From: Ignavibacteriota bacterium
Lineage (GTDB): Bacteria > Bacteroidota > Ignavibacteria > UBA10030 > BY39
DNA: 64,000 nt
Direction: 5' to 3'
NCBI GenBank assembly: GCA_003327435.1
Contig: QOQV01000009.1
Span: 1 to 64,000 of the forward strand
Part shown: in pieces, positions 17,708-53,528 of the stretch
Position numbering within the stretch: position 1 is the first letter of the stretch
Layout of the letters: every line of letters begins with the position of its first letter
Translations under genes and position numbers: made by a program
Notes under the pieces: generated by a model
The model's database searches: none
What the model was told of the DNA's origin: nothing
The model's input: the letters and a program-made list of their open reading frames with translations, nothing else

Positions 17708-18874
17708 ATGAAAATAGCATACTTCGATACAATCGCTGGTATAAGCGGTGATATGACAATTGGTGCATTCCTGAGCGCAGGTGTACCAATTGATGTACTT
17801 AAATCGGAGCTTGGAAAAATAGCTTTGACTGGTTATGAAATTTCCCAGCATAGTGTAGAAAAAAATGGTATTTTTGCCACAAAATTTGATGTAAAAGTAA
17901 CAGTTGCAGAAACTAAACATCGGCACTTAAGTGACATAAAGCAGCTCATTGAAAGTTCTCGATTGTCGGATAGAATAAAAAAAATTTCCATTAAAATATT
18001 TGAAGAATTAGCACAGGCGGAAGCAATAGTCCATAATACATCCATAGAAAAAGTGCATTTTCATGAAGTTGGTGCGATTGATTCTATTATAGACATTGTT
18101 GGAACTGCAATTTGTATAAATTATCTGGAAATTGAGAAAATATTTACGACTCCTGTTAAATTGGGATCAGGCGGTTTTGTCCAAACTCAACATGGTAATT
18201 TGCCAATACCTACACCAGCGGTGGTTGAATTGTTAAAAGATTACCCAGTCGAATTAACTAATATAGAATTTGAACTTACAACCCCAACTGGAGCCGCAAT
18301 CATCAGAGCATTGTCTTCTGGCGTGCTTCAAAATGAAGAATTTAAGATTAACTCGATTGGCTATGGTGCTGGGAATTTTCAATTACCAATTCCAAACTTG
18401 CTCCGAATAATAATTGGAGATTTAGATTACAAGGTTTCTTATGAAGAACTTATTTTAGTGGAAACTAATATAGATGATATGAATCCGGAAATATACCCAT
18501 ATGTCGTTGAAAAGTTAATATCAATGGGTGCACATGATGCATATTTGATTCCAATTATTATGAAAAAAGGTAGGCCTGGAATTTTACTTTCTACATTAAT
18601 TTCTAAATCTTTACTTGATCAAATATCGAATTTCCTTTTTAAAGAGACAACAACTTTAGGTTTGAGAATTATTGAAGTTGATAGAAAAAAGATTTATAGA
18701 GAGTTGAAACTTATCGATACAAAGTTTGGGAAGGTTCAGGTCAAAGTTGTTGATATAAATGGTCAGGTGAGATACATACCTGAGTTTGAGGAATGCAGGC
18801 GAATTGCATCTGAAACAGGAATGCCATTAATTGAAATTTACAAACAAATTGAAAAAGAATTCAAAGGAAAATAA
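17708..18874 (+). CDS. larC: Nickel-pincer cofactor biosynthesis protein LarC
   Basis: LarC inserts nickel into the pyridinium-dithiocarboxylate cofactor of lactate racemase and related enzymes, in a CTP-dependent reaction. The 388-residue product starts with AYFDTIAGISGDMTIGAFL and has KVHFHEVGAIDSIIDIVGTA (about 115-134), then TTPTGAAIIRAL, NIDDMNPEIYPYVVEKL and the C-terminal ferredoxin-like half. In some species larC is split by a programmed frameshift; here it is one uninterrupted frame. LarA, LarB and LarE are not in the window, so the client racemase must be elsewhere. It follows waaA by 12 bases, probably on the same transcript. Confidence 0.9.
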   Translation: MKIAYFDTIAGISGDMTIGAFLSAGVPIDVLKSELGKIALTGYEISQHSVEKNGIFATKFDVKVTVAETKHRHLSDIKQLIESSRLSDRIKKISIKIFEELAQAEAIVHNTSIEKVHFHEVGAIDSIIDIVGTAICINYLEIEKIFTTPVKLGSGGFVQTQHGNLPIPTPAVVELLKDYPVELTNIEFELTTPTGAAIIRALSSGVLQNEEFKINSIGYGAGNFQLPIPNLLRIIIGDLDYKVSYEELILVETNIDDMNPEIYPYVVEKLISMGAHDAYLIPIIMKKGRPGILLSTLISKSLLDQISNFLFKETTTLGLRIIEVDRKKIYRELKLIDTKFGKVQVKVVDINGQVRYIPEFEECRRIASETGMPLIEIYKQIEKEFKGK

Positions 18875-18875
18875 A

Positions 18876-21800
18876 ATGAAAAAAGTATTTTTAACTTTGT
18901 TTATAATAAATACATTTCTTTGTGATTTAGCATTTAGCATCAGACCACCGAAGGAAGGTGTAAAGATAGATCAGCGATTGATAGAGGAATTTAAAATTAT
19001 TCAACAATCGTATTCTTCAGGTTATTGGGCAGAGAAAATGATCGAACGCTATAAACAAATGCAAGATGACCCTGAAATTTTAAAAAATAATTTAACAATC
19101 GATAGTATTTATGCCCCAACTCTATTAGGTTATTTCACTGATATATTGCCAACATATACAAAGGACCAATTCCAGGCACAATTATGGGATGGTCCAAATC
19201 CCTCTGGTACGATCACCGACTATTATAAAGAAATTTCTTATGGAAAGATGTATCTTTATGGAAATTGTGAGGGGTGGTATCCAGTACAGGGTCCAGTATC
19301 TGCATATAATCCTGGTAGTAGTTCTGGTGGGCCAAAGTTTACTTATGAACTTTTAGTTGCAAGCGATAATCAAGTTGACTACAGTAAATATGTAAGATAT
19401 ATTGATGCTCAAGGTAATGGACATGTTCCGTTTCTTATTGTTGTTCATACAGGTGGGGATGCCGCAGCAGGTGCACCGAATATATGGTCGCATCGTTGGG
19501 ATTTTAAAGTATATAGCGGTTCTGCCTTTGTAACAAATGATAAAATGCCTGATGGTAAATCTGTAATTGTGGATGGACCTTATGCAATACAACCTGAAAT
19601 GACTGGTAATCAAAATTCAGGTGGGGCAATAGAACCGATTGGAGTATTTGTACACGAACTGGGGCATATATTTAATTTACCAGATCTTTACGATGTTTCC
19701 GGACAGGGAGAAGGTTTAGGTGGATGGTGCCTGATGGCTTCAGGTAGTTATGGCGGCGATCAAAGGAATTCTCATAAACCTTCACATATGTCTGCCTGGT
19801 GCAAAATTAAATTAGGATGGGTTTCTCCAGTCAATGTTACTACAACTTTTGACGATTTTGCCGTCTTGCCTGTTGAAAACAACCCGATTGTTTACCGCCT
19901 CTGGAAAAATGGAATACAAGGTAGTCAGTACTTTTTAATTGAAAACAGACAAAAAATTGGTTTTGATGTTTCACTAATTGAAAGTGGATTACTAATTTAT
20001 CATGTTGACGATCAAATAAATTCGCAAAATAATCCAGATCATTATAAGGTAGATTTGGAACAGGCGGATGGAATCAGACATTTGAATTTAGGATCCAACC
20101 GGGGTGATGCTGGGGATCCTTTCCCTGGATTCGGTGGAGCAAATAATCCTAATACGACTTTCGATGGTTATTCAACACCCAATAGCAGAGATTATAATAA
20201 TTTGTTAACTGGTATAAATATTAACTCAATCAGAAAAATAGATACATTAATAATGTTAAATATGACTATTTGGGATACAAGTATTGTTGCATCTGCTTTT
20301 GACGATGTGACCCCACAAGTGTTAAAGGATTCTTCAGAGAATTACGGCGTGGCAATTTTTGATTTTAATAACGATGGCTTGGAAGATATTTATGTGGCAA
20401 GCAAATCTACGAATAAATTTTATATAAATAATGGTGGCGTAAGTTTTACAGAATCCGCTTTCTCAGCAGGTATAGCTGATGTTGATCAAAACAGAGCAGC
20501 AGTCGTTGCTGATATTGATAATGATAATTTTGAAGATTTACTTATCACTACCTATAATCCATTGCCATTATTAAGAAGAAAGAATAAACTTTATAGAAAT
20601 AACTCCGATGGAACTTTTACTCTTCTAACTTCAAGTCCTGTTTATTATGATGATCGTTCAATGGGTGCAAATTTTGTTGATTACAATAATGATGGTATAA
20701 TTGATATATTTATTCTTTCAGAATTAAATACAAAAAAAGCCAGCCTTTTTAAAAACCTTGGAAGTGGTATTTATTCTCTCGATACGACTTCAGGTCTGGA
20801 CTATCAGGGTAAAGCTTCAATGGCAATATGGGGTGATATTAATAACGATGGTTATATGGATGTCTACATACTTACAAGAGATGAACTATCAGCTTGTGAA
20901 CTGTATAAGAATAATGGAGATGGGACTTTCAGTAATATTACAACGATAGCTGGGGTAGAAAATATGAATTATGCTTTGGGTGCTGCATTTGGTGACATTA
21001 ATAATGATGGATATCTGGATATTTTTGTTTGTAATGAAAATGCTCCAAATAGATTATATAAGAATAATCAAAATGAAACTTTTACTGATATTGCAACAAT
21101 TGCTGGTGTTGCTGATATTGGTATCAACTATTCGCCGGTTTTTTTAGATTATGATCTGGATGGTTATCTTGATATTTATGTTACCAGAGCTGGTCCAAAT
21201 AGATTGTTTCGAAATAACGGAAATGAGACCTTTATTGAGATTGCAGGTAGAATGAATATATCAAATAGAGCACTTAACAAAGGTGCTGCTATTTTAGATG
21301 TAAATAATGATGGATTGCCAGATATTTTTGTTGCATCTGGAAGTACAACATCTTCAAATTTACTATATCAACACACTACTACCAATAAAAAATGGGTAAA
21401 GGTATCCCTAAAAGGTAATCCATCAAATCGTAGCGCAATAGGTGCAAGAATTAATTGCTATACAGGTGGAAATCTACAAATAAGAGAAATAAATGGTGGT
21501 TCGGGATACTTATCTCAAAACAGCAAAACACAATTTTTCGGATTCCAGGATTATGAATTTATAGATTCAATGAGTATAAGGTTTCCATCTGGAAACACTT
21601 TTAAATTTTATAACCTGAGCACTAATAAACATTATAGTTTTATTGAAAACGAACTTTCAGCTGAAGAAATATCTTCTATTCCCCAAAAGTACACTTTGTA
21701 TCAAAATTATCCCAACCCATTTAATTCTAATACAATAATCACATTTGATGTTCCTAATAGTGAAAGGGTTATTTTAACGGTTTTTAATGTTCTTGGTCAG

Positions 21801-21947
21801 GAAGTTTCTAAACTGGTAAATTCTGAATTAAAAGCGGGAAATTATAAAATTGAGTTTGATGCAGCCAATTTGCCAACGGGCGTTTATTTTTACAGATTGA
21901 CAACTCAAAACTTCAGCTATGTTAGAAAAATGCTTTTAGTTAGGTAG
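18876..21947 (+). CDS. Secreted M6-like metallopeptidase with VCBS repeats and T9SS sorting domain
   Basis: The start is ATG 18876, where a signal peptide opens (MKKVFLTLFIINTFLCDLAF); upstream extension to 18831 runs inside larC. The 1023-residue protein has, in order: an immune-inhibitor-A-like (M6) peptidase at about 80-470 with the zinc motif HELGHIFNLPDLYD (His260, Glu261, His264) and GGWCLMASGSYGG; a series of FG-GAP/VCBS calcium-type repeats at about 480-850 (DFNNDGLEDIYVAS, DINNDGYLDIFVCNENAPN); an ASPIC/UnbV-like module at about 870-935 (GNPSNRSAIGARINCY); and a type A T9SS sorting domain at the end (YPNPFNSNTIITFDV, then GVYFYRL). It should be exported by T9SS and tethered or released outside. 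It begins 1 base after the larC stop. Confidence 0.88.
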   Translation: MKKVFLTLFIINTFLCDLAFSIRPPKEGVKIDQRLIEEFKIIQQSYSSGYWAEKMIERYKQMQDDPEILKNNLTIDSIYAPTLLGYFTDILPTYTKDQFQAQLWDGPNPSGTITDYYKEISYGKMYLYGNCEGWYPVQGPVSAYNPGSSSGGPKFTYELLVASDNQVDYSKYVRYIDAQGNGHVPFLIVVHTGGDAAAGAPNIWSHRWDFKVYSGSAFVTNDKMPDGKSVIVDGPYAIQPEMTGNQNSGGAIEPIGVFVHELGHIFNLPDLYDVSGQGEGLGGWCLMASGSYGGDQRNSHKPSHMSAWCKIKLGWVSPVNVTTTFDDFAVLPVENNPIVYRLWKNGIQGSQYFLIENRQKIGFDVSLIESGLLIYHVDDQINSQNNPDHYKVDLEQADGIRHLNLGSNRGDAGDPFPGFGGANNPNTTFDGYSTPNSRDYNNLLTGININSIRKIDTLIMLNMTIWDTSIVASAFDDVTPQVLKDSSENYGVAIFDFNNDGLEDIYVASKSTNKFYINNGGVSFTESAFSAGIADVDQNRAAVVADIDNDNFEDLLITTYNPLPLLRRKNKLYRNNSDGTFTLLTSSPVYYDDRSMGANFVDYNNDGIIDIFILSELNTKKASLFKNLGSGIYSLDTTSGLDYQGKASMAIWGDINNDGYMDVYILTRDELSACELYKNNGDGTFSNITTIAGVENMNYALGAAFGDINNDGYLDIFVCNENAPNRLYKNNQNETFTDIATIAGVADIGINYSPVFLDYDLDGYLDIYVTRAGPNRLFRNNGNETFIEIAGRMNISNRALNKGAAILDVNNDGLPDIFVASGSTTSSNLLYQHTTTNKKWVKVSLKGNPSNRSAIGARINCYTGGNLQIREINGGSGYLSQNSKTQFFGFQDYEFIDSMSIRFPSGNTFKFYNLSTNKHYSFIENELSAEEISSIPQKYTLYQNYPNPFNSNTIITFDVPNSERVILTVFNVLGQEVSKLVNSELKAGNYKIEFDAANLPTGVYFYRLTTQNFSYVRKMLLVR

Positions 21948-41605: not shown

Positions 41606-42655
41606 ATGAAAGAAACAACAATTCAGTTGTACGATAACTACAAGATGAGAAATTTATTGATTAATTTCCCAAATCAAATTCAACAGGCAATAGAAATTGG
41701 GAATAAAATCAAATTCGCTTTGAAAAAGTCAATAATACAAAATATAGTTATAACTGGACTTGGCGGCTCAGCTATTGGTGGAGATTTATTAAGGTCATAC
41801 CTTAGCGACGAATTATCAATTCCTTTGCTTGTTAATCGAAATTACAACTTACCTGAGTTTGTTGATGAAAGCAGTCTTGTAGTGGTTTCAAGCTACTCTG
41901 GAAATACAGAAGAAACTATCTCAGCACATATGGATGCTCACAAGAGGAAATCTCAAATAGTATGTATAACATCAGGGGGTGAAACAGAAAAGCTTGCAAA
42001 GAAATACAAGAATAACTTAATCAAAATTCCTAAAGGTTATCCACCCCGTGCAGCTTTAGGTTTTTCATTTTTCCCAATACTAATACTATTATCTAAATTG
42101 GGATTTGTAAGAAATAAACAGAAGGAAATTAGGGAAACTATTTCTTTGTTGAAAAAGAAATCCAAAACTTATCAAAACCTTGACGCAGATAAAAACCCAG
42201 CTCTTCAATTAGCACAAAAATTTTTTAACCGCTTGCCAATAATATATTCATCCTCAGAGCATTTTGATAGTGTAAATATAAGGTGGCGTGGACAGCTAAG
42301 CGAGAACTCAAAAGTACTGGCATTTGGAAATGTTTTACCAGAAATGAACCATAATGAGCTTGTTGGCTGGAAAGTCCTTAAATCCGCAATGGCAAATATG
42401 ATTGTTGTTTTTTTGAAAGATAAGAATGATCATAATAGAGTAAAAATACGAATGAAAATTACAGAAGGTATTGTAAAAGAATATGCAGCTGATGTATTAT
42501 ATATTGAAAGCGAAGGGAATTCACTTTTAACAAGAATGTTTTCCTTGATATACCTTGGTGACTGGGCGAGTTATTATTTGGCTATAATAAATGGTATAGA
42601 TCCAACTCCGGTAAAAGTTATTGACTACTTAAAAAACGAATTGTCTAAAGTTTGA
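41606..42655 (+). CDS. Bifunctional phosphoglucose/phosphomannose isomerase
   Basis: A 349-residue isomerase of the small PGI/PMI family, which interconverts glucose-6-P or mannose-6-P with fructose-6-P. It carries a double SIS fold: ITGLGGSAIGGDLLRSYL (about 50-67), VVSSYSGNTEETI (SIS phosphate site), and later PEMNHNELVGWK, the motif with the catalytic Glu and His of this family. It lies in line between PTS enzyme I and the envelope genes; the next gene starts with TTG directly on its TGA, so translation may be coupled. Confidence 0.88.
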   Translation: MKETTIQLYDNYKMRNLLINFPNQIQQAIEIGNKIKFALKKSIIQNIVITGLGGSAIGGDLLRSYLSDELSIPLLVNRNYNLPEFVDESSLVVVSSYSGNTEETISAHMDAHKRKSQIVCITSGGETEKLAKKYKNNLIKIPKGYPPRAALGFSFFPILILLSKLGFVRNKQKEIRETISLLKKKSKTYQNLDADKNPALQLAQKFFNRLPIIYSSSEHFDSVNIRWRGQLSENSKVLAFGNVLPEMNHNELVGWKVLKSAMANMIVVFLKDKNDHNRVKIRMKITEGIVKEYAADVLYIESEGNSLLTRMFSLIYLGDWASYYLAIINGIDPTPVKVIDYLKNELSKV

Positions 42656-45469
42656 TTGAAATTTATTTTAAAAAAATATATCTTCTATATCTTGTTCTTA
42701 ACAGGAACACTACAAGCTCAATTTTTTTATTTTGGTAGAAATAAAGTTCAATACACTGAGTTTGATTGGCAGGTTCTTAAAACAGAACATTTTGATATTT
42801 ATTTTTATACGGGGATGGAAGACCTTGCTAACCGTGGTGCCTATCTTGCAGAACAGTCCTATAAAATACTGGAGAAAAAATTTAATCATAACATATTGCA
42901 CAAAATCCCATTAATATTTTATAGTACTCCACTGCATTTCCAACAAACCAATGTAACTCCCGGTTTTATTCCAGAAGGTGTTGGTGGATTTTTTGAATTT
43001 TTAAAAGGAAGAGTGGTAATTCCTTTTAACGGATCTTTTAGGGAATTTCAACATGTAATACAGCACGAACTTGTACATGTTTTTATGCATAGTAAAATTT
43101 CTAAAGTTCTTAATGAACACAGAAAAATTTCTGATCGTTTGCCACCTCTGTGGTTTGTCGAAGGGCTTGCTGAATTCTGGTCAACAAACTGGGATATTCA
43201 GGCAGATATGATAATGCGCGACCTGGTATTAAATAATAATCTGGTGCCTCTTGATGATATAGAAAAGATTTATGGTTCATACCTGATGTATAAGGAAGGT
43301 CAAAAAATCCTAGAATATATTTCAGAAAGATATGGCGAGGAAAAAATATTGCTTTTATTAGAAAATTTCTGGAAGGATGATTCATTTGAAGATGTGTTTA
43401 AAAAGACATTGGGTGTGAATTATGAAGAGTTTGATCGTGAATGGGTTTATGCTATGAAGAAAAAGTATTATCCAGTAATTTCTAATTCGGATAATCCAAG
43501 CATTGCATCCAAAGTAATTGTGAAGAAAGGTTTTAACACAAAACCAACTTTTTATAAACCAGTTGGTGATACTTCAAAATATGTTTGTTTTATTGGTAAC
43601 CATTCAGGTTATACAAGTTTATATAAGCTTGAATTAAATAATGAAAAAGCCAAACCCAAACTTTTAATTCAGGGCGAAAGTACAGATGAATTTGAAGCGT
43701 TCCATCTGTTTCAAAGCAAATTGTCTGTATCTAAAGATGGTATACTTTCCTTTATCACAAAAAGCGGTGAGAGGGATGTTATTCACTTGCTTGATTTGGA
43801 AAAAGAAAAGTTAATCGAGACATTAAAATTCGAAGAATTAGTATCAATAAGTTCTGCGGCTTGGTCAAATGATGGAAGAAATCTCGTAATATCCGCAACA
43901 GGATTGAATGGATATTATGATTTATATATCTGGAATAATGAAAAAAAATTTTTAAAAAGGTTAACTAATGATATTTATGATGATAGAGATGCGGTCTGGT
44001 CAATTGACGGAGATTATATAGTGTTCAGCTCGGATCGCACTTCGTATGGTGCCAACGGTTATTATAATCTTTTTAAATACTCATTAAAAACAAATCATAT
44101 TTATTATTTAACATTTGGAGAAGAAAATTATTATTCGCCAGAATTTTCGAATGATGGTAAATTTTTGGTTTTTGTTTCTGATATAGGTGGTGCACGAAAC
44201 ATCTGGTTGATGAATTGGCAGGATTCAGATTTTACAAATATCCACCGTATTACTAATTTTACAACTGCTGCTTTTGATCCAGTATTTACCGACGATAATA
44301 AATTATTGTTTACCTCTTTTGAAAACTATAACTTTACGATTAATCTGCTTGAAGATTTTGAAAATCTATATCTCAATTCTTTTGAAATGCGCAGTATTAA
44401 AATCGATGTGGATAATCAAAAGTGGACAATTGAAAGTATGATTGGTGATTCAGAAGCAAAGAGATATAAATATGTCGGTGAGTATAGTATGGATATAGCT
44501 CAAAGTCAGATTTCCACAGACCCTGTTTTTGGAACCTCAGGTGGTGCATTCGTTGCACTTAGCGACCTATTGGGTGATGAACAATATTATTTTCTTGTTT
44601 ACAATACAGCACAAAGTCAGTCCGAGATAATGCAAAGTTTTAATTTTGCTATATCTCGTATATCACTTGCAAAGCGAACAAACTTTGGATATGGAGTTTT
44701 CAGATTCTCAGGAAGAAGGTACGATCTGACGGACCCTGATTATTTTTATTTTGAAAAAGTATTTGGTGGTTATTTCGTCTTAAGTCACCCACTTTCAAAG
44801 TTTAGAAGAATAGAATTGGCTGCCAGTATTAGCAACTCTGAAAAAGAAATCATAGAAGGTTTCGGTGGTAGAAAAGCTCTATTTGTATCTAATTCTTTAA
44901 CATTTGTACACGATAATTCTCTCTGGAGTTTAAGTGGACCCATTGATGGAAGTAGATTTAAAATTACATTTGCATATACGACAGATATCCAGTATTCGAA
45001 TGCCAATTATTATTCTTTTATTTTCGATTTAAGGTACTATTTGCGACTCACTTTAAGAAGTGCCTATGCAATGAGATATTGGCTTTTTTATAACGAAGGT
45101 CAGGAAGCAAGAAGATTTTTTATGGGAGGAAATTGGGACCTGCGAGGTTATCCAAGATGGTCAATAAGAGGACAGAAACTCTGGCTTGTATCTCATGAAT
45201 TAAGATTTCCTCTTATAGATGAATTTTATATAAAATTTCCTTTTTGGGGTATTCGACTTTCTGGTTTTAGAGGTGCATTGTTTTTTGATGCCGGAAGTGC
45301 CTGGGACAAAGTTTATAAACAAACACTTGGTAGTTTCGGTGCAGGAATTCGCTTCAATTTAGGTGGTTTCCTGGTGCTGCGTTACGATTTCGGTAAAAGA
45401 ATAGAAAACAATTTCTCTAAAATACAAAGTAATTATTTTCATCAATTCTTTTTCGGCTGGGATTTTTAA
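42656..45469 (+). CDS. Hybrid envelope protein: metallopeptidase-like, beta-propeller and Omp85-like barrel
   Basis: A 937-residue protein starting at TTG 42656, directly after the previous TGA. A signal peptide (IFYILFLTGTLQAQ) is followed by a gluzincin (peptidase MA-like) domain at about 35-265 with HELVH at 137-141 and WFVEGLAEF (167-174) supplying a possible third Glu. Residues about 270-570 form TolB/PD40-type propeller blades (AWSNDGRNLVISATG, FSNDGKFLVFVSDIGGARN). The C-terminal about 300 residues look like an Omp85/D15 surface-antigen barrel (MGGNWDLRGYPRWSIRGQKL, GALFFDAGSAWDK, GAGIRFNLGGFLVLRYDFGK, final Phe in FFFGWDF). This order is unusual to me. Peptidase activity is uncertain. 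It is followed at once by a BamB-like lipoprotein. Confidence 0.82.
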   Translation: MKFILKKYIFYILFLTGTLQAQFFYFGRNKVQYTEFDWQVLKTEHFDIYFYTGMEDLANRGAYLAEQSYKILEKKFNHNILHKIPLIFYSTPLHFQQTNVTPGFIPEGVGGFFEFLKGRVVIPFNGSFREFQHVIQHELVHVFMHSKISKVLNEHRKISDRLPPLWFVEGLAEFWSTNWDIQADMIMRDLVLNNNLVPLDDIEKIYGSYLMYKEGQKILEYISERYGEEKILLLLENFWKDDSFEDVFKKTLGVNYEEFDREWVYAMKKKYYPVISNSDNPSIASKVIVKKGFNTKPTFYKPVGDTSKYVCFIGNHSGYTSLYKLELNNEKAKPKLLIQGESTDEFEAFHLFQSKLSVSKDGILSFITKSGERDVIHLLDLEKEKLIETLKFEELVSISSAAWSNDGRNLVISATGLNGYYDLYIWNNEKKFLKRLTNDIYDDRDAVWSIDGDYIVFSSDRTSYGANGYYNLFKYSLKTNHIYYLTFGEENYYSPEFSNDGKFLVFVSDIGGARNIWLMNWQDSDFTNIHRITNFTTAAFDPVFTDDNKLLFTSFENYNFTINLLEDFENLYLNSFEMRSIKIDVDNQKWTIESMIGDSEAKRYKYVGEYSMDIAQSQISTDPVFGTSGGAFVALSDLLGDEQYYFLVYNTAQSQSEIMQSFNFAISRISLAKRTNFGYGVFRFSGRRYDLTDPDYFYFEKVFGGYFVLSHPLSKFRRIELAASISNSEKEIIEGFGGRKALFVSNSLTFVHDNSLWSLSGPIDGSRFKITFAYTTDIQYSNANYYSFIFDLRYYLRLTLRSAYAMRYWLFYNEGQEARRFFMGGNWDLRGYPRWSIRGQKLWLVSHELRFPLIDEFYIKFPFWGIRLSGFRGALFFDAGSAWDKVYKQTLGSFGAGIRFNLGGFLVLRYDFGKRIENNFSKIQSNYFHQFFFGWDF

Positions 45470-46623
45470 TGAGAATCTTCTTGAAACATTCGATTTTTTT
45501 TATCTTGATAATTTTGATATCCTGCCAGAGTATCCAAATCCAAAAATATATAAAAATAAAAGATTTGGATTTAATAATGTTCGGGGTTAATTTCACAAGA
45601 ACAAACTTTTATGATTCTGAAATTAACCCTCCTCTTGAAAAATTCTGGGAATACGATGCTGATGCTGGCTTCAGTAAATATTCTGCTTGCATTGCGGATA
45701 GTATTCTGTTTTTACCAACTCTTTATGGCGAGCTCCACCTGGTTAATATATACAATGGAAAAAAAATTGCCAAGCAAAAATTTGCAGGTCCTATTTCGGG
45801 TTCCATTGCTTTAGATAATAACGAAGTGTGTCTTACTTTCTCTAATTCAGATATATCATTACTGTGTTATGAACTTATAGCTGGCAAGAAAAAATGGGAT
45901 CTTAAAATTGGAGAAATTGAAACTGCCCCTCTTTTGTTTGAAAAAAAATTGTTTGTATCAACTCTTGATGGTAAACTTTTTTCGATTGATAAAAACAAAG
46001 GAATTGTAAACTGGTCGTTCTCCCCCGAAAATAAAATACCTAAACCATCTTATTCTTCACCTGCAACAAACGGACAGGTGGTGTTATATGGATGTGACGA
46101 TGGATACCTTTATGCTGTTGATTTTGACAATGGAAAATTGAAATGGAAATTTAAAACAAATGCAAGCATAAAATCTACTCCATCAATAAATGAACAGGCT
46201 GTATATTTCGGCTCAACTGATGGTAATTTTTATTGTGTGGATTTAGAAAGTGGGGAACTTCGCTGGAAACATAATTTTGAATGTCCAATTTATAACTCTC
46301 AAGCTTTGAGTGATTCTTTTATTTATGTGAACACCCAGGATGGTTTTTTGAAATGTCTGAATATAGATTCCGGGAAAGAAATTTGGAAATTTTATGCTGG
46401 CTCGCTTTTATCGTTCTCTCCTTTGTTAATTAAAAATTTTGTTATAGTTGGTTGTTACAATAAGAACATTTATTTAATTGATTTAAAAACAGGTAATTTA
46501 ATCTGGTCTTATCAGGTGAATGGAAGAATTAAAAGTTCACCAATTATGTGGAAAAAATTTTTGATAGTTATGACCGATAATCAAACCGTTTATTGTTTTA
46601 AACCTAAAAATGATAATCCATAA
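45469..46623 (+). CDS. BamB-like PQQ-type beta-propeller lipoprotein
   Basis: A 384-residue protein with a lipoprotein signal (FFILIILISCQS; Cys19 as the lipidation site) and several PQQ/quinoprotein-type blades, each with the Gly-X-X-X-Trp pattern: AGKKKWDLKIG, KNKGIVNWSFSP, NGKLKWKFKTN, SGELRWKHNF, SGKEIWKFYAG and TGNLIWSYQVNG, separated by FVSTLDGKLFSID and YFGSTDGNFYCVD. No redox centre is implied. The fold, anchoring and position recall BamB of the outer-membrane assembly machine. Its ATG overlaps the TAA of the Omp85-like gene by one base (TAATG), a strong sign of coupling. Partnership is inference. Confidence 0.8.
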   Translation: MRIFLKHSIFFILIILISCQSIQIQKYIKIKDLDLIMFGVNFTRTNFYDSEINPPLEKFWEYDADAGFSKYSACIADSILFLPTLYGELHLVNIYNGKKIAKQKFAGPISGSIALDNNEVCLTFSNSDISLLCYELIAGKKKWDLKIGEIETAPLLFEKKLFVSTLDGKLFSIDKNKGIVNWSFSPENKIPKPSYSSPATNGQVVLYGCDDGYLYAVDFDNGKLKWKFKTNASIKSTPSINEQAVYFGSTDGNFYCVDLESGELRWKHNFECPIYNSQALSDSFIYVNTQDGFLKCLNIDSGKEIWKFYAGSLLSFSPLLIKNFVIVGCYNKNIYLIDLKTGNLIWSYQVNGRIKSSPIMWKKFLIVMTDNQTVYCFKPKNDNP

Positions 46624-47368
46624 ATTAAACCTAAAAATATTTTTTGTATTAGTTCTTATTAATGTTAATTTATCTCGAGCGCAATTAACAGAATCGTATC
46701 TTTCCATTGAATCAAATATTGAAGGTGCAAAAGTATATCTGGATTCAATGAATATTGGTAAAACACCAATTTATAATTTTAAAATAAATTCTGGAAATTA
46801 TAATCTAAAAGTTGTTTATCCAGATGATAAATCCTGGAATCAGTCTCTGTATACTGAAAGCATTCAGCTAAGCCCAGGCGAAAATTTGAAAAAGTATATT
46901 GAGTTAGAATATATTTTTATTATAAATTCCACTCCAATTGATGCTAATGTATTTGTAGGTGATTCTCTAATAGGTCAAACACCTGTCGTTTATTTTACAA
47001 AATCTACAGAGTTGGTTGCAAGAATTGAAAAAGAGGATTATGAAAGTGTAATTTTCAAATTTGATAAAAATAACCATTATCAAGAAGTAATACTATTAAA
47101 GAAGGAATCTAAAGTTTTGAATAAAAGCAACCTTAAAGTCACACATCTCAGTACTGAAGTCTATATAGCAGGTGGAAGTGCTATAATATTCGGTTCAGCA
47201 GCTGCATTGTTAAAAGTAAAAGCAGATGAACATTATAAAAAATACAGAAGTACTGGTGACAGAAGCGAGTTAACGCATGTTAGAAAATTTGATAAATTAT
47301 CAGGAATTTCCTTATTTTTATGTGAAATTAGCAATATTTTGCTTGTTTATTTGCTTTTGTTAAGGTAA
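46610..47368 (+). CDS. PEGA-repeat envelope protein with C-terminal hydrophobic segments
   Basis: A 252-residue product with a signal peptide or anchor (LKIFFVLVLINVNLSRAQ), then two PEGA-type repeats: SIESNIEGAKVYLDSMNIGK (about 29-48) and NSTPIDANVFVGDSLIGQTP (about 105-124). PEGA domains are beta-sandwich modules found in surface and peptidoglycan-associated proteins. The C-terminal part has hydrophobic stretches near 184-200 (VYIAGGSAIIFGSAAAL) and 236-252 (ISLFLCEISNILLVYLLLL), perhaps membrane segments. It overlaps the BamB-like gene by 14 bases. Function unknown. Confidence 0.7.
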   Translation: MIIHKLNLKIFFVLVLINVNLSRAQLTESYLSIESNIEGAKVYLDSMNIGKTPIYNFKINSGNYNLKVVYPDDKSWNQSLYTESIQLSPGENLKKYIELEYIFIINSTPIDANVFVGDSLIGQTPVVYFTKSTELVARIEKEDYESVIFKFDKNNHYQEVILLKKESKVLNKSNLKVTHLSTEVYIAGGSAIIFGSAAALLKVKADEHYKKYRSTGDRSELTHVRKFDKLSGISLFLCEISNILLVYLLLLR

Positions 47369-47420: not shown

Positions 47421-49817
47421 ATGGAAGATAATGGGAGTTTCAAAATAACCGATGAATTAAAAAAGCGTGCAGAAGAATTAGCTAAAAAAGTTGAAGCTGA
47501 TGAAATTCTTCGTATCGAAGAGTTGATAAAAAAAGCTGAAGAGTTTGCCTCAATGCGAAATCGAGATTTCTGGGAAAAGTGCGAAGCAAAATTAAAATTA
47601 GCCGAGCAGATTTTTCAGCAATCAAAGCAGGATTTAATTGAGCGCGAAAGAGAGATTGAACAGATTCTAAAAGAAGAGAGAGTTAAGAAATTAGATGCAT
47701 ATAAAAAACAGCTTGAAGAGAAAAAATTGAGAGAGGAAGAAGAACGCAGACGACTCGAAGAAGAAAAGCGCCGGCAGGAAGAAGAACAACAACGCAGATT
47801 AGAAGAAGAAAGAAGATTAAAAGAAGAATTACAACGCAAACGAGAAGAAGAAGAGAGATTACGCAGAGAAGAGGAGGAACGTAGAAAGAAAGAAGAGATT
47901 GAATTGAAAGTTCAAACCCTTTTAACACAGGCAAGGGAATATTTTGAAAATAATAATTATGAAGCTGCATTGATTGAAGTTGCAAAGGCACTTGTGCATA
48001 ATCCTGAACATCCTGAAGCTATAGAATTAAAACAAAGCATTAAACAAGCACAAACTGCTACTACTCAAGTTACAGAACAGGAGGAAAAGGAAAAAGCCGT
48101 CGAAACTGTCGAATTTGATAAGATTGAAACCATACCTGAAACTAAACCCATTGCACCAGCTTCTCCAGTAAAGAAGAGAAAAAAATATCCAATCGTTGCT
48201 ATAGCTGTTGCAATTATTGCATTAATAGCAATTGCTTTATATCAATATTTACCACGAATCTTTTATCAGTCACCATCAATTGCAGTTTTACCTTTTAAAA
48301 GTGAAACAGGAACTCTTGAGGAAGATGTTCTTGGTCGAGGTATTTCTGAGGATATTGTAAATCGACTTTATTATATCAAGGATTTGAAAATAATGGGATA
48401 CAAATCTGCGCTTTTTATTTCAAACTCATATTCAAATCCCGAAAATCTGGTTTATCAAACAGGATTTGGTAAAATTTTAGAAGGGAGAATTAAACAGACA
48501 GATAACCAAATTTCAGTTAAAATAATTTTGAAAGATACAGCCGGAAATAATATTGAGAAAGAAATTTTAGAAAATAAGGAAAAACTATTTGAATTACCCT
48601 CTGTGGTATGTAAAGAAATAGTCAATATGTTAAATATAGACAAAGAGAATGTTAATGAAACGGCTTTTAGAATCTCAACTTCGGATAATTCAGCATATTT
48701 GATGTATTTGCGTGGTCTTGAGATGATGCATCGCCAAACTGAAGCGAGTTTGAATAATGCTCAACAACTTTTTGATTATGCAACATCGTTAGATGACAGT
48801 TTTGTCGAATCTTTTGCAATGAGTGGATATGCTTCGCTTTTGAAAAATGTATATTATTATCGTTCAAATAAAGATTTTAGCAAAGCCAGCGATATGTTGG
48901 AGAGAGCAGATATTAAAATGCTCAATCCACTCTTTGTAAAACCCAAAATTATGTTACTTAACATCTATAAGAAAGATTTTTCAAGTGCCATAAACATTCA
49001 TAACAAACTTGAATCAACTTTTTATAAAAATGCTGAAATTTATAAATGCGATGGTATATTAAAACTTTTTACCGGCAATTATGAGAATGCTACAGATGTT
49101 TTAATACTTGCAAAAGAATTAGACCCATATGATTTTGAGCTTCTAAGGCTAATTTCAAAAGCTTATCAATTAAATAAAGAATACAAATCAGCTTACTCAC
49201 TATATAATCAGTATAGTGCATTTTTTGATGATACTTCGTCAGCAGTGATGAATGATCTATCCAATATAATTTTAAATGATCCTGAATTAATGGTTAAATA
49301 CTCTAATAGATTAATTGGTATATTAGAAAAAAGGATTGAGCGCAATCCAAAGGATTGTAGAGATCGATATAAACTTGCTCGTATTTATCAGGTGAATGGT
49401 AAATATTCAGATGCTGAACCTATATTGATCAAAGCACTTGATCTTAATGAAGGAGAATACTTAACTAAGCCGAATAATCCAGAAGTCTTAATATACAGAG
49501 CTTTGATTAACACTCGACTTGGGAGATTTAATGATGCTGTAAAAAACGCACAGGCTGCACTTCAGATGGCTAATGATGATTATAGAATCTATTATAAAGC
49601 TGCACAGATGTACGCAATTCAGGCAAAGGGTAACGATACATTATATTACGATAAGAAAACAAAGCGACCTATCTTGAAAGAGTTTATAAAATCTATTGAA
49701 TTATTACAACAAGGTGTAGAAAAATATTTTGATATTGATGAGATACTTGATGTAGATTTTTATAATTTGCGCCGTACAGTAGAATTCCAAGAAGCAATCA
49801 AACTAAAGGGCAAATAA
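47421..49817 (+). CDS. Membrane-anchored charged-helix/TPR protein with TolB/FlgO-like domain
   Basis: A 798-residue protein. Residues about 60-165 form a very long charged helix rich in Glu, Lys and Arg (EEEERRRLEEEKRRQEEE). A TPR-like pair follows at about 168-205 (AREYFENNNYEAALIEVAKA), then a linker and one transmembrane helix at about 256-274 (YPIVAIAVAIIALIAIALY). The part after the helix begins SIAVLPFKSETG (286-297), with GISEDIVNRL, a signature of the TolB N-terminal/FlgO-like domain that is often fused to adenylate cyclases or kinases; here no such catalytic domain is present. About 425-790 are TPRs. With one helix, the charged helix should be cytoplasmic and the TPRs periplasmic. 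It is a paralogue in layout of the next gene. Confidence 0.78.
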   Translation: MEDNGSFKITDELKKRAEELAKKVEADEILRIEELIKKAEEFASMRNRDFWEKCEAKLKLAEQIFQQSKQDLIEREREIEQILKEERVKKLDAYKKQLEEKKLREEEERRRLEEEKRRQEEEQQRRLEEERRLKEELQRKREEEERLRREEEERRKKEEIELKVQTLLTQAREYFENNNYEAALIEVAKALVHNPEHPEAIELKQSIKQAQTATTQVTEQEEKEKAVETVEFDKIETIPETKPIAPASPVKKRKKYPIVAIAVAIIALIAIALYQYLPRIFYQSPSIAVLPFKSETGTLEEDVLGRGISEDIVNRLYYIKDLKIMGYKSALFISNSYSNPENLVYQTGFGKILEGRIKQTDNQISVKIILKDTAGNNIEKEILENKEKLFELPSVVCKEIVNMLNIDKENVNETAFRISTSDNSAYLMYLRGLEMMHRQTEASLNNAQQLFDYATSLDDSFVESFAMSGYASLLKNVYYYRSNKDFSKASDMLERADIKMLNPLFVKPKIMLLNIYKKDFSSAINIHNKLESTFYKNAEIYKCDGILKLFTGNYENATDVLILAKELDPYDFELLRLISKAYQLNKEYKSAYSLYNQYSAFFDDTSSAVMNDLSNIILNDPELMVKYSNRLIGILEKRIERNPKDCRDRYKLARIYQVNGKYSDAEPILIKALDLNEGEYLTKPNNPEVLIYRALINTRLGRFNDAVKNAQAALQMANDDYRIYYKAAQMYAIQAKGNDTLYYDKKTKRPILKEFIKSIELLQQGVEKYFDIDEILDVDFYNLRRTVEFQEAIKLKGK

Positions 49818-49820
49818 ATT

Positions 49821-51104
49821 ATGGATGAGAAAAAAGAATTATCCAAAGAAGAAAAAAGAGAAATAGCCAGAGAAAAATTATTAACTGCAGATAAATTATT
49901 CAAAGCTGGTGAATATAAAAAAGCTCTGGAAACTGTTGAAGATGCATTGGATGTAGATCCTGAAAATTTTTATGCCCTTGCATATAAAGATAGAATTTTG
50001 AATGTGCTCGAGTCAGAACAGAGTGTTGAACAACCAGTTAAAGAGAAGGCAGAAAGTAAAGAGGATGTGAAGCAGAAAACACAACAGGAAGCTTTGAGGA
50101 AATTGAAAGAACAGCAATTAAAAGAAGCTGAAGAGAGAAAAAAGAGAGAAGAAGAAGCGCGTAGAATTGCTGAAGAAGAGTTGCGTAGGCGAGCCGCTGA
50201 ATTAGAGATGCTCAGAAAAGCAGAAGAAGAACAAAAAAGGTTAAAAGCAATAGAAGAAGAAAAAAAGAAAAAGGAAGAAGAGCTTCGTAAAAAACGTGAA
50301 GCAGAAGAGCAAGCAAAACTTTTAGAAGCAGAACGCGCTCGAAAACGTCAACTTGAGGAACAGGAAAGAAAACGCAAAGAAGAAGAAGCAAGAAAGAAAG
50401 CCGAGGAACTCGAACGTAAAAAACGAGAAGAAGCAGAAAGAAGACGCAGGGAGGAAGAAGAAATGCGTCGTAAGGCTGAAGAAGCTAAAAGAAAAGCTGA
50501 AGAAGAACTTAGAAAAAAACTTGAAGAGGAAAAGAGAAAAAAACAGGAAGAAGAGTATCTAAAGTCAGAAGAGACGAAGGCAATCTCGAGAGTTAGAGAA
50601 GCAAAAATTCAGGAATTTCTTGAACAGGCTGGTATTTTTATTAAGGAAAACAAATTTAAAGAAGCAGTGATCGAAATTGCAAAAGTCCTTTTGATTGATC
50701 CCAAAAACTCTGATGCTCTCAAGCTCGAAGAAACATTTCAGCAAGAGCAAATGAAACAAATAGAAGAAGAATTTGAAGTGAAAAAGAAAATCCCCAGAGA
50801 TATGATTATAGAATCTTATAAACGTACATTAAAAGAAGCATGGATCGATGGAACTTTAAGTGTAGAAGAGGTTACCCAGATTGAAATGAGGAAGAGAGAA
50901 TTGGATATTTCGGAAATTGAACACAAAGATCTCGAAAGAGAAATTCAGCTTGATTGTTATGAGCAGAATTTAAGAGAATTTTGGAAGGATGGCGCTATAA
51001 CACCTGAGGAGCAGGATTGGTTGGATATTTTAAGAGAAGAATTGAGAATAACTCCAGAAGAACATCTCGAAATTGAAAGAAAAGTCAGAAAAGAAGTAAC
51101 ATAG
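49821..51104 (+). CDS. Cytoplasmic charged-helix/TPR protein with duplicated C-terminal motif
   Basis: A 427-residue protein with no signal peptide or membrane helix. A TPR-like pair lies at about 18-58 (ADKLFKAGEYKKALETVEDA), a charged Glu/Lys/Arg helix at about 95-250, and a second TPR-like pair at about 265-303 (LEQAGIFIKENKFKEAVIEI). The end is a clear internal duplication with a period of 47 residues: 332-376 (YKRTLKEAWIDGTLSVEE...) and 379-423 (YEQNLREFWKDGAITPEE...). Both copies keep Y, L(K/R)E, W, DG, EE, L.I and ER residues. The TPR after the charged helix closely resembles that of the upstream membrane protein. I do not recognise a family for the repeat. The gap to the previous gene is 3 bases. 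Confidence 0.75.
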   Translation: MDEKKELSKEEKREIAREKLLTADKLFKAGEYKKALETVEDALDVDPENFYALAYKDRILNVLESEQSVEQPVKEKAESKEDVKQKTQQEALRKLKEQQLKEAEERKKREEEARRIAEEELRRRAAELEMLRKAEEEQKRLKAIEEEKKKKEEELRKKREAEEQAKLLEAERARKRQLEEQERKRKEEEARKKAEELERKKREEAERRRREEEEMRRKAEEAKRKAEEELRKKLEEEKRKKQEEEYLKSEETKAISRVREAKIQEFLEQAGIFIKENKFKEAVIEIAKVLLIDPKNSDALKLEETFQQEQMKQIEEEFEVKKKIPRDMIIESYKRTLKEAWIDGTLSVEEVTQIEMRKRELDISEIEHKDLEREIQLDCYEQNLREFWKDGAITPEEQDWLDILREELRITPEEHLEIERKVRKEVT

Positions 51105-51143
51105 AAAATATTTTCCTAAATGTAAAATATGCAAGGAGGAATT

Positions 51144-53528
51144 ATGAAAAAAAATATCATAGTTTTATTATTTGTAACCATTACATTTACATATTCACAG
51201 GAAAATTCACTTTTTAATGTTTTTCAACCAACATTTGTAAAATCTATGTTTACCGCAGGTGTTGATGGTGTTTCAGGTATTGCAATAAATCCTGCTGCTG
51301 CAGGACTTCAACAGGAAGCCGGAATTTTTTTAAATACGACTTTTCACAAAAGCAAGTTTAAAGAGAATTCTATATACTTAAATACAAAATTTTTTAATTT
51401 TGGTTTAGGAATAAACTTTAGAAACTCAACCGACACTTCCTCTAAAAATACTTTATATGCAATTGGTTATAATCTGGGCATAGGTAATGAAAGGTTTGCT
51501 TTTGGTATAGGATTAGATAATGTGTGGCAGAATAGGTCTTTCTCAAGCGTAAAATCATTTTATAGTTTTGGATTTGTAGCGCGCCCAATCAGGTATCTTT
51601 CATTAAGTTATTCGCTCCTCAATGCTGGATGGAAAAATGTTGCTGGTAGAGATATAAAAGCAACCAATATTTTCGGAATTGGTGTTAGACCACTTGGCAC
51701 CAATCAGTTCACACTCTATTTCGACTATGAATATGACACAAACCTTAAACTTAAGGAAACGCCATATAAATATGGTGCTGAGCTAAAAATTGCCCGGGGA
51801 TTATTCATTTATGGTAGTTTTTATGACATGAGAAATTCTAATGGGAAAAATTATAATTTGGGTATGCGCTTTGATTTTCCACACATCGGTATTGGATTTA
51901 ACAGCGTTTTGAATGATGAAAAAAAGAGCATCGGACACAATCTTTCTCTATACATAAATCGGGCAATGAAACCAAGTTTGGTTCGAGGGAAAACAAAAAT
52001 AGCAGAAATAACTATTGAAGGTAATTACAATGATTTTAGTGAACCTGGGGGCATATTCTCAAAACCAACAAAAGGTTTGCAGGCTTTAATTGAAGAGATT
52101 GATAACGCAGCTAATGATGATGATATCGGTGGCGTGCTTTTAAATATAAAAAGCTTTACAACTCCTTATTCAATATTCGGAATGAATTCTGGTCTTGAAG
52201 AGTTATCTTCTGCAATTCAAAGAGTGAAAGTAAAAGGTAAACCTGTAGTTGCTTTTATAGAATCTGTTGGGAATTTACATGAAATTTATCTTGCTGTTTG
52301 TGCTGATAAAGTTATACTACCTCAATATGGAATGTTGATTGGATATGGTATATCGTATAATAATCTTAAACTCAAATATGCTCTTAAAAAAATAGGGATT
52401 GATTTGAGGACATATACTGCCGGAAAATATAAATCCTCACTTAATGATTTATCTGATACTTTGTCAACTGTAAAAATTGAAGAATTAAACTCGTTAATTG
52501 ATGACTTATATGATAAAATGGTTGAACATATCAAATCTCATAGAAAAGTAAGTGATAATATTATAGATTCGTTATCTGGAATAATATATCCAGAACAAGC
52601 ACAAAGTGCAGGTGTAATTGATATTATTGGTTGGTATGAAGATGCAAAAAAAGAAGTTTATAAATTGGTTAAAAACAGAGAGGTTGAGAAAGCAGAAGAT
52701 GTTCGTACTTTTAAACTTGCAAGCAGGAGATATTGGAACGAATATTGGAATTCTCCTGACAAGATTGCAGTAATTGGAATCTATGGAACGATTGTACAGG
52801 GGGAGAGTCAACCACCCAGTCCAGTTCCAATTCCTTTTTTATCATCACCAAGGTCAACTGGATCAGAAACTGTAATAAGGCAACTTGAGAGAGCTGTGAA
52901 AGATCCAAATGTTAAAGCTATTATTTTGCGTGTCGATAGTCCAGGTGGAGATGGAATTGCTTCAGATGATATTTATCGTGCAGTTGTGAAAGCTCGTGAG
53001 AAAAAAACTGTAATTGTCTCGATGGGAAGCTTGGCAGCATCAGGTGGTTATTATGTTTCATCCCATGGTGCCAAAGTTTTTGCAAATCATACAACGCTTA
53101 CAGGGAGTATCGGTGTAATATCTCAGGTTCCATTCCTTTATGAGCTGTTTCAGAAGTATGATGTTTACACAAAAAGTTTCAATCGTGGTAGTTTTAGCGA
53201 ATATTTTAACATTTACGCTGAACCCAAACCTGAAGCAGAAAAAATGCTGAACGATGCACTTAATACATTTTATGATGGTTTTATAAAAAGAATTGCAGAA
53301 GGTAGAAAATTAACTGAAGAGGAAGTCAGATTGGTTGCGCAGGGAAGAATCTGGACAGGTAAACAGGCGAAAGAGCGAAAACTGATTGATGAAATCGGAT
53401 CACTTTCTGATGCAATTCAATATGCAAAACAAATATGTAATTTAGGGGTGGATACAAAAATTGAATTTTATAGTGTTCCCGCCCAAACATTTGGTATTGG
53501 ATCAATAATGTCTGTTTTGATTAAATGA
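51144..53528 (+). CDS. SppA-type serine protease with N-terminal outer-membrane barrel-like region
   Basis: I start at ATG 51144, preceded by AAGGAGG (51133-51139); it opens a signal peptide (KNIIVLLFVTITFTYSQ). Residues about 25-275 look like a PorV/UPF0164-type outer-membrane barrel: the GVSGIAINPAAAGLQQ motif, then repeated strands (YAIGYNLGIGNERFAFGIG, FGFVARPIRYLSLSY, TNIFGIGVRPLGTNQFTLYF). Residues about 285-790 are a double S49 protease of the 67K SppA type. The lysine of the dyad is probably Lys430 (GKYKSSL) and the serine Ser633 (AASGGYYVS). This 794-residue architecture is a fusion of barrel and protease. Ordinary SppA is inner-membrane anchored, so location here is uncertain. It ends the 37540-53528 run at a shared terminator. 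Confidence 0.85.
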   Translation: MKKNIIVLLFVTITFTYSQENSLFNVFQPTFVKSMFTAGVDGVSGIAINPAAAGLQQEAGIFLNTTFHKSKFKENSIYLNTKFFNFGLGINFRNSTDTSSKNTLYAIGYNLGIGNERFAFGIGLDNVWQNRSFSSVKSFYSFGFVARPIRYLSLSYSLLNAGWKNVAGRDIKATNIFGIGVRPLGTNQFTLYFDYEYDTNLKLKETPYKYGAELKIARGLFIYGSFYDMRNSNGKNYNLGMRFDFPHIGIGFNSVLNDEKKSIGHNLSLYINRAMKPSLVRGKTKIAEITIEGNYNDFSEPGGIFSKPTKGLQALIEEIDNAANDDDIGGVLLNIKSFTTPYSIFGMNSGLEELSSAIQRVKVKGKPVVAFIESVGNLHEIYLAVCADKVILPQYGMLIGYGISYNNLKLKYALKKIGIDLRTYTAGKYKSSLNDLSDTLSTVKIEELNSLIDDLYDKMVEHIKSHRKVSDNIIDSLSGIIYPEQAQSAGVIDIIGWYEDAKKEVYKLVKNREVEKAEDVRTFKLASRRYWNEYWNSPDKIAVIGIYGTIVQGESQPPSPVPIPFLSSPRSTGSETVIRQLERAVKDPNVKAIILRVDSPGGDGIASDDIYRAVVKAREKKTVIVSMGSLAASGGYYVSSHGAKVFANHTTLTGSIGVISQVPFLYELFQKYDVYTKSFNRGSFSEYFNIYAEPKPEAEKMLNDALNTFYDGFIKRIAEGRKLTEEEVRLVAQGRIWTGKQAKERKLIDEIGSLSDAIQYAKQICNLGVDTKIEFYSVPAQTFGIGSIMSVLIK

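Follow-up and report, generated by a model that had tools for sequence, protein, structure and literature searches.

A predicted metallopeptidase, propeller and Omp85 barrel in one chain, encoded beside a BamB-like lipoprotein in an Ignavibacteriota bacterium

A single gene of an Ignavibacteriota bacterium encodes an HExxH peptidase-like domain, a TolB-type beta-propeller and an Omp85 barrel in one chain. This architecture, which a preliminary description had proposed from the DNA, is borne out by matches to Pfam families and by AlphaFold models. The hybrid is followed by a gene for a propeller lipoprotein resembling BamB, and the gene pair, whose conservation had been proposed as a check, is kept across the Ignavibacteria and also in sister classes. 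Below, the window denotes the whole stretch of DNA analysed (64,000 nucleotides, positions 1 to 64,000 of contig QOQV01000009.1). Its features relevant to the hybrid are as follows:

42656..45469, plus strand: hybrid gene, 937 aa, encoding a gluzincin, a TolB-like propeller and a POTRA-less Omp85 barrel, with a TTG start
42656..42718, plus strand: predicted signal peptide, residues 1-21, cut before Gln22
42719..43510, plus strand: peptidase domain, residues 22-285, Peptidase_MA_2 / gluzincin fold
43064..43078, plus strand: HELVH motif, residues 137-141
43151..43174, plus strand: WFVEGLAE, residues 166-173, including Glu169, the predicted third zinc ligand
43289..43300, plus strand: YKEG, residues 212-215, including Tyr212, the predicted catalytic-site Tyr
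43511..44425, plus strand: PD40 / TolB-like beta-propeller, residues 286-590, linker included
44483..45466, plus strand: Omp85 16-strand barrel, residues 610-937, with RGY at 830-832 and a C-terminal Phe
45469..46623, plus strand: gene for the BamB-like PQQ-propeller lipoprotein, 384 aa, overlapping the hybrid gene by one base
46610..47368, plus strand: gene for a PEGA-domain protein, 252 aa, overlapping the lipoprotein gene

The TTG start of the hybrid had been described as lying on the stop of the previous gene, which encodes a phosphoglucose-isomerase-like protein (bact-PGI_C in Pfam). The start itself is supported, since the equivalent codon is ATG in two orthologues (genomes G003 and G004); it directly abuts the upstream TGA (42653-42655) and does not overlap it. 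The signal peptide is predicted from the sequence, from a helix at residues 2-19 in the AlphaFold model and from the invariance of Gln22 in an alignment of 60 orthologues. The same number of orthologues served as AlphaFold2 input for the full chain, giving a model (mean pLDDT 79.9, pTM 0.68) in which a helical peptidase part and a propeller precede 16 strands between residues 610 and 935. In a full-length Pfam scan the hybrid matched Peptidase_MA_2 (34.8 bits, cut-off 32.4) and PD40.

The hybrid probably carries an active gluzincin metallopeptidase, with a site that we infer to be functional. An HExxH motif, a predicted Glu ligand downstream of it and a gluzincin fold in the model together place the domain in the gluzincins of clan MA(E). 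From the sequence pattern of M1, M9 and M61 enzymes, we infer that Glu169 would supply the third ligand and that Tyr212 would belong to the catalytic site. His137, Glu138, His141, Glu169, Tyr212, Lys213 and Gly215 are all invariant in the 60 aligned orthologues. The HExxH motif is present in 79 of 80 hybrid loci, and the one locus without it has a truncated frame; Peptidase_MA_2 was matched in every one of the full-length orthologues in the 29-sequence set scanned with Pfam (29/29). The earlier proposal that HELVH is placed to bind metal thus agrees with the modelled gluzincin-like fold and with the invariance of the predicted third-ligand Glu and the Tyr. Averaged by domain, conservation stands at 0.76 in the peptidase, 0.73 in the barrel and 0.58 in the propeller. 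The peptidase is therefore the most conserved part of the chain, which argues that it is under selection.

Folded alone, the peptidase domain was modelled with a pLDDT of 78.6. In structural comparison this model resembled lugdulysin of family M30 (Z 15.8 over 238 residues, 5.0 A), the M9 collagenases (Z 14.3) and the M1 aminopeptidases (Z about 13), and enzymes of these three families make up nearly all of the structural matches listed for it. Foldseek agreed with the gluzincin matches, if weakly (best E 6e-4). When a profile of just the peptidase was searched against solved structures, a single weak collagenase match emerged (E 0.094), in which WFVEGLAE was aligned with the collagenase WWSEGIAEY. 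Residues 98-117, upstream of HELVH, are poorly modelled despite their high conservation.

The propeller superimposes on TolB (Z 25.5, 242 residues, 2.3 A), and the barrel on BamA (Z 23.5, 299 residues, 4.0 A) and TamA (Z about 22). Whether the C-terminus is an Omp85 barrel had been set beforehand as a test of the preliminary description, and the C-terminus is indeed predicted as a 16-strand barrel of the BamA/TamA kind. The Omp85 family PF01103 was not reported in the full-length Pfam scan of the hybrid; we read this as a filter effect, since the C-terminal piece alone scores 48 bits for it, twice the cut-off of 24. The hybrid reached 45.7 bits for PF01103 in a whole-genome search, and the family was matched in 21 of 29 full-length orthologues. 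The hybrid also carries the loop-6 motif [VL]RG[YF] as LRGY at 829-832, and R830, G831 and the C-terminal F937 are invariant in the 60 orthologues. No POTRA family occurs among the Pfam matches of the 29 orthologues, and the hybrid scores just 13.8 bits for the BamA equivalog, a weak match that does not qualify it as a BamA.

The ATG of the lipoprotein gene lies within the sequence TAATG and shares one base with the stop of the hybrid, exactly as had been described. Its product was also said to be like BamB, and this holds in part. The protein has a PQQ_2 propeller (112.5 bits in Pfam) and a lipobox, with Cys19 invariant in 16 aligned partners, but its score of 135 bits for the BamB equivalog TIGR03300 is well below the cut-off of 285. 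The gene lies directly downstream of the hybrid in all 30 orthologue loci first fetched, and in a scan of GTDB contigs it adjoins the hybrid in 70 of the 73 loci that have room for it. The three others (L103, L112 and L123) are without the lipoprotein and have a gene for a CRP-like regulator directly downstream of the hybrid instead. In a panel of 31 genomes, which are related so that the counts are not independent, the lipoprotein occurs in 17/17 genomes with the hybrid and in 0/14 without it; the latter contained either nothing or partial matches to other propeller proteins only. Among 27 genomes from other families and classes that carry the hybrid, the partner is adjacent in 23, elsewhere in 2 and absent from 2 (G041 and G045).

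A canonical BamA (437 bits) is encoded separately, 26 kb downstream on the same contig, followed by two genes that by eye are Skp-like. Since this BamA stands apart and the partner is the sole PQQ_2 propeller protein of the host genome, the lipoprotein looks dedicated to the hybrid. That its presence follows the hybrid argues against a role as a subunit of the BamA complex, and the possibility that it is simply the BamB of the host BamA is accordingly disfavoured. The usual third member of the cluster is the PEGA gene, found in 50 of 64 loci whose downstream sequence exceeds 2 kb. Upstream of the hybrid there are usually genes for PtsI and PGI; these neighbours are metabolic and give no hint to its function.

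Other genes of the window deserve mention in their own right. Two adjoining TPR proteins with long charged stretches (47421-51104) are retained next to the cluster in close relatives. Next to them, at 51129-53528, lies an SppA-like peptidase (S49) whose first ~290 residues look barrel-like by eye and have no Pfam or NCBIfam match; it may be another barrel-peptidase fusion, some 6 kb from the hybrid. An M6 peptidase with FG-GAP and UnbV_ASPIC domains and a type IX secretion sorting tail is encoded at 18831-21947.

Orthologues of the hybrid are present in 34 of the 41 genomes of the host's order, the host included, with the gene split over two contigs in one of them (G013). A chance fusion or an error of assembly was rejected on this count; more broadly, the conservation, the synteny and the predicted folds of the hybrid and its partner rule out chance. 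The seven close relatives that are without the hybrid indicate that it is not universally essential. By our own count of full-length matches, 46 of 198 genomes sampled from the phylum have it, and GTDB contigs hold 361 relatives of any degree, mostly from Ignavibacteria and Bacteroidota. The hybrid-lipoprotein pair is ancient and widely kept.

The 2.6 Mb host genome has nine Omp85-type matches, three of which belong to the peptidase-propeller family. Besides the hybrid there are two paralogue families, B and C, whose N-terminal parts are 37% and 28% identical to that of the hybrid, respectively. Every sequence in the alignment, ten of B and nine of C, keeps both His, both Glu and Tyr212. Paralogue B (L050 6067-9192, G000:C13; 1041 aa) has no BamB-like neighbour and is more widespread in the phylum than the hybrid. 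Paralogue C (L051 4751-15973, G000:C17) clusters with the type IX secretion genes PorU, PorV and M6i. In 7/8 other genomes it is adjoined by M6i, a T9SS-dependent inactivated M6 protein, and in 7/8 it also keeps a 315-aa protein. Given this tie to the type IX secretion genes, a role in assembly or export gains weight.

What might such a chain do? We tentatively propose that the hybrid is an accessory device for outer-membrane assembly and quality control, working beside the canonical BAM in the manner of BepA but within a single chain. According to this proposal, the 16-strand barrel would lie in the outer membrane, and the peptidase and propeller in the periplasm, a placement that we deduce from the topology of Omp85 barrels and from the precedent of PlpD (PMC11116518). 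Instead of POTRA domains and BAM lipoproteins, it would be the propeller and the BamB-like lipoprotein translated with it, often joined by the PEGA protein, that receive some of the outer-membrane or surface-bound proteins. The lateral gate of the barrel would help to insert or pass these clients, and the peptidase would clip or remove those that stall. The preliminary description had spoken of a self-contained device; this is questionable in view of the separate gene for a canonical BamA. It also speaks against the proposal that characterised insertases, to our knowledge, are equipped with POTRA domains, of which none is found in the hybrid. Should the device prove to insert or export proteins, it would present an Omp85 barrel that works with a propeller and a protease instead of POTRA domains, and outer-membrane assembly would be directly tied to proteolytic quality control. 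One may speculate further that Ignavibacteria and their sister classes possess a second, POTRA-less assembly machine, in which barrel insertion or export is coupled to built-in zinc proteolysis, with a dedicated BamB-like lipoprotein and three diverged paralogues, one of them tied to type IX secretion; this wider claim we consider doubtful.

Other readings of the hybrid have to be weighed against this proposal. In two-partner secretion a barrel exports the product of a neighbouring gene, and the one-to-one adjacency and co-occurrence of the hybrid and the lipoprotein are likewise typical of a transporter and its cargo. The barrel could then be a dedicated exporter that brings the lipoprotein to the cell surface, perhaps along with the PEGA protein, while the peptidase trims them. 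The faster evolution of the lipoprotein (mean column identity 45%, compared with 66% for the hybrid) also fits a cargo. However, POTRA domains and a known secretion signal are both absent, and a propeller of the BamB kind would be just as much at home as a subunit in the periplasm, so that we regard export of this kind as unlikely. A slightly different picture is suggested by prolyl oligopeptidases, where a propeller filters substrates. Given that the peptidase is the best conserved domain and that M1 aminopeptidases and M9 collagenases are among the enzymes its fold resembles, the hybrid might be a tethered enzyme that degrades or matures peptides admitted by the propeller, the barrel being an anchor or a peptide pore. 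It is hard to see, though, why an inert anchor would need to be nearly as conserved as the enzyme (0.73) and to keep the Arg and Gly of RGY fully, and this reading too seems rather unlikely.

The location and the activity of the peptidase can also be questioned. For other Omp85 enzyme fusions the main text of Heinz and Lithgow raises the option that the enzyme is displayed on the surface (PMC4104836), as was once proposed for PlpD, and the peptidase and propeller of the hybrid could similarly be threaded through the barrel to act extracellularly. Two folded domains would then need to pass the barrel, and the enzyme domain of PlpD has been proved periplasmic (PMC11116518); we therefore hold surface display to be very unlikely. 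Finally, the peptidase fold may have lost its activity and serve as a binding scaffold only. Such decay does occur in the host genome, where the M6i neighbour of paralogue C belongs to a family of inactivated metalloproteases. Yet the predicted ligands and the Tyr are all invariant in the orthologues and kept in the paralogues, making an inactive protease the most improbable of these alternatives. We thus retain, with due caution, the assembly and quality-control device as the preferred reading.

The hybrid shares traits with several known systems. With the BAM complex it has in common the barrel fold of BamA and the lipoprotein propeller of BamB, but it has no POTRA domain, and its partner falls below the BamB cut-off and is encoded beside the hybrid rather than beside BamA. 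The BAM complex of Flavobacterium (PMC12611786), from the same phylum, is an expanded outer-membrane assembly machine with the subunits BamA, D, G, H, M and P; its published text is without BamB or a propeller. BepA is reported to be an M48 metalloprotease that acts at BAM on outer-membrane proteins (PMC8423444). The proposed periplasmic metalloprotease work of the hybrid would be similar, a functional analogy only, as BepA is a separate M48 enzyme and the hybrid is a gluzincin fused to its barrel. PlpD, a patatin-Omp85, also has an enzyme domain N-terminal to an Omp85 barrel (PMC11116518), but that domain is lipolytic, is accompanied by one POTRA and comes without a propeller.

The family PF00149, which we take to comprise calcineurin-like phosphoesterases and not HExxH proteases, had no match among the families listed for the 29 orthologues. 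The 'Metallo' Omp85 subfamily, said in the main text of Heinz and Lithgow to carry a 'metalloprotease' domain (PMC4104836), rests on PF00149 and was rejected as a counterpart of the hybrid.

In its barrel and propeller the hybrid agrees with the WD40-Omp85 subfamily, which Heinz and Lithgow defined in 2014 by its TolB-like propeller and whose members, their main text suggests, resemble a BamA-BamB fusion (PMC4104836). As in the hybrid, the propeller directly precedes the Omp85 barrel and POTRA domains are absent. The main-text account does not report a peptidase domain or a lipoprotein partner, and the word 'peptidase' does not occur in it (PMC4104836). Among open-licence papers we found none on a gluzincin domain or a lipoprotein partner of WD40-Omp85 proteins, and a 2024 paper still describes these proteins as uncharacterised and as intriguing targets (PMC11116518). 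The barrel and propeller of the hybrid are therefore of a known kind, while the peptidase and the dedicated partner set it apart as a variant. The present findings give three experimental handles on the WD40-Omp85 proteins: the predicted active site, which is open to mutation; the dedicated lipoprotein, which lends itself to co-purification; and the two paralogues, of which one lies by type IX secretion genes.
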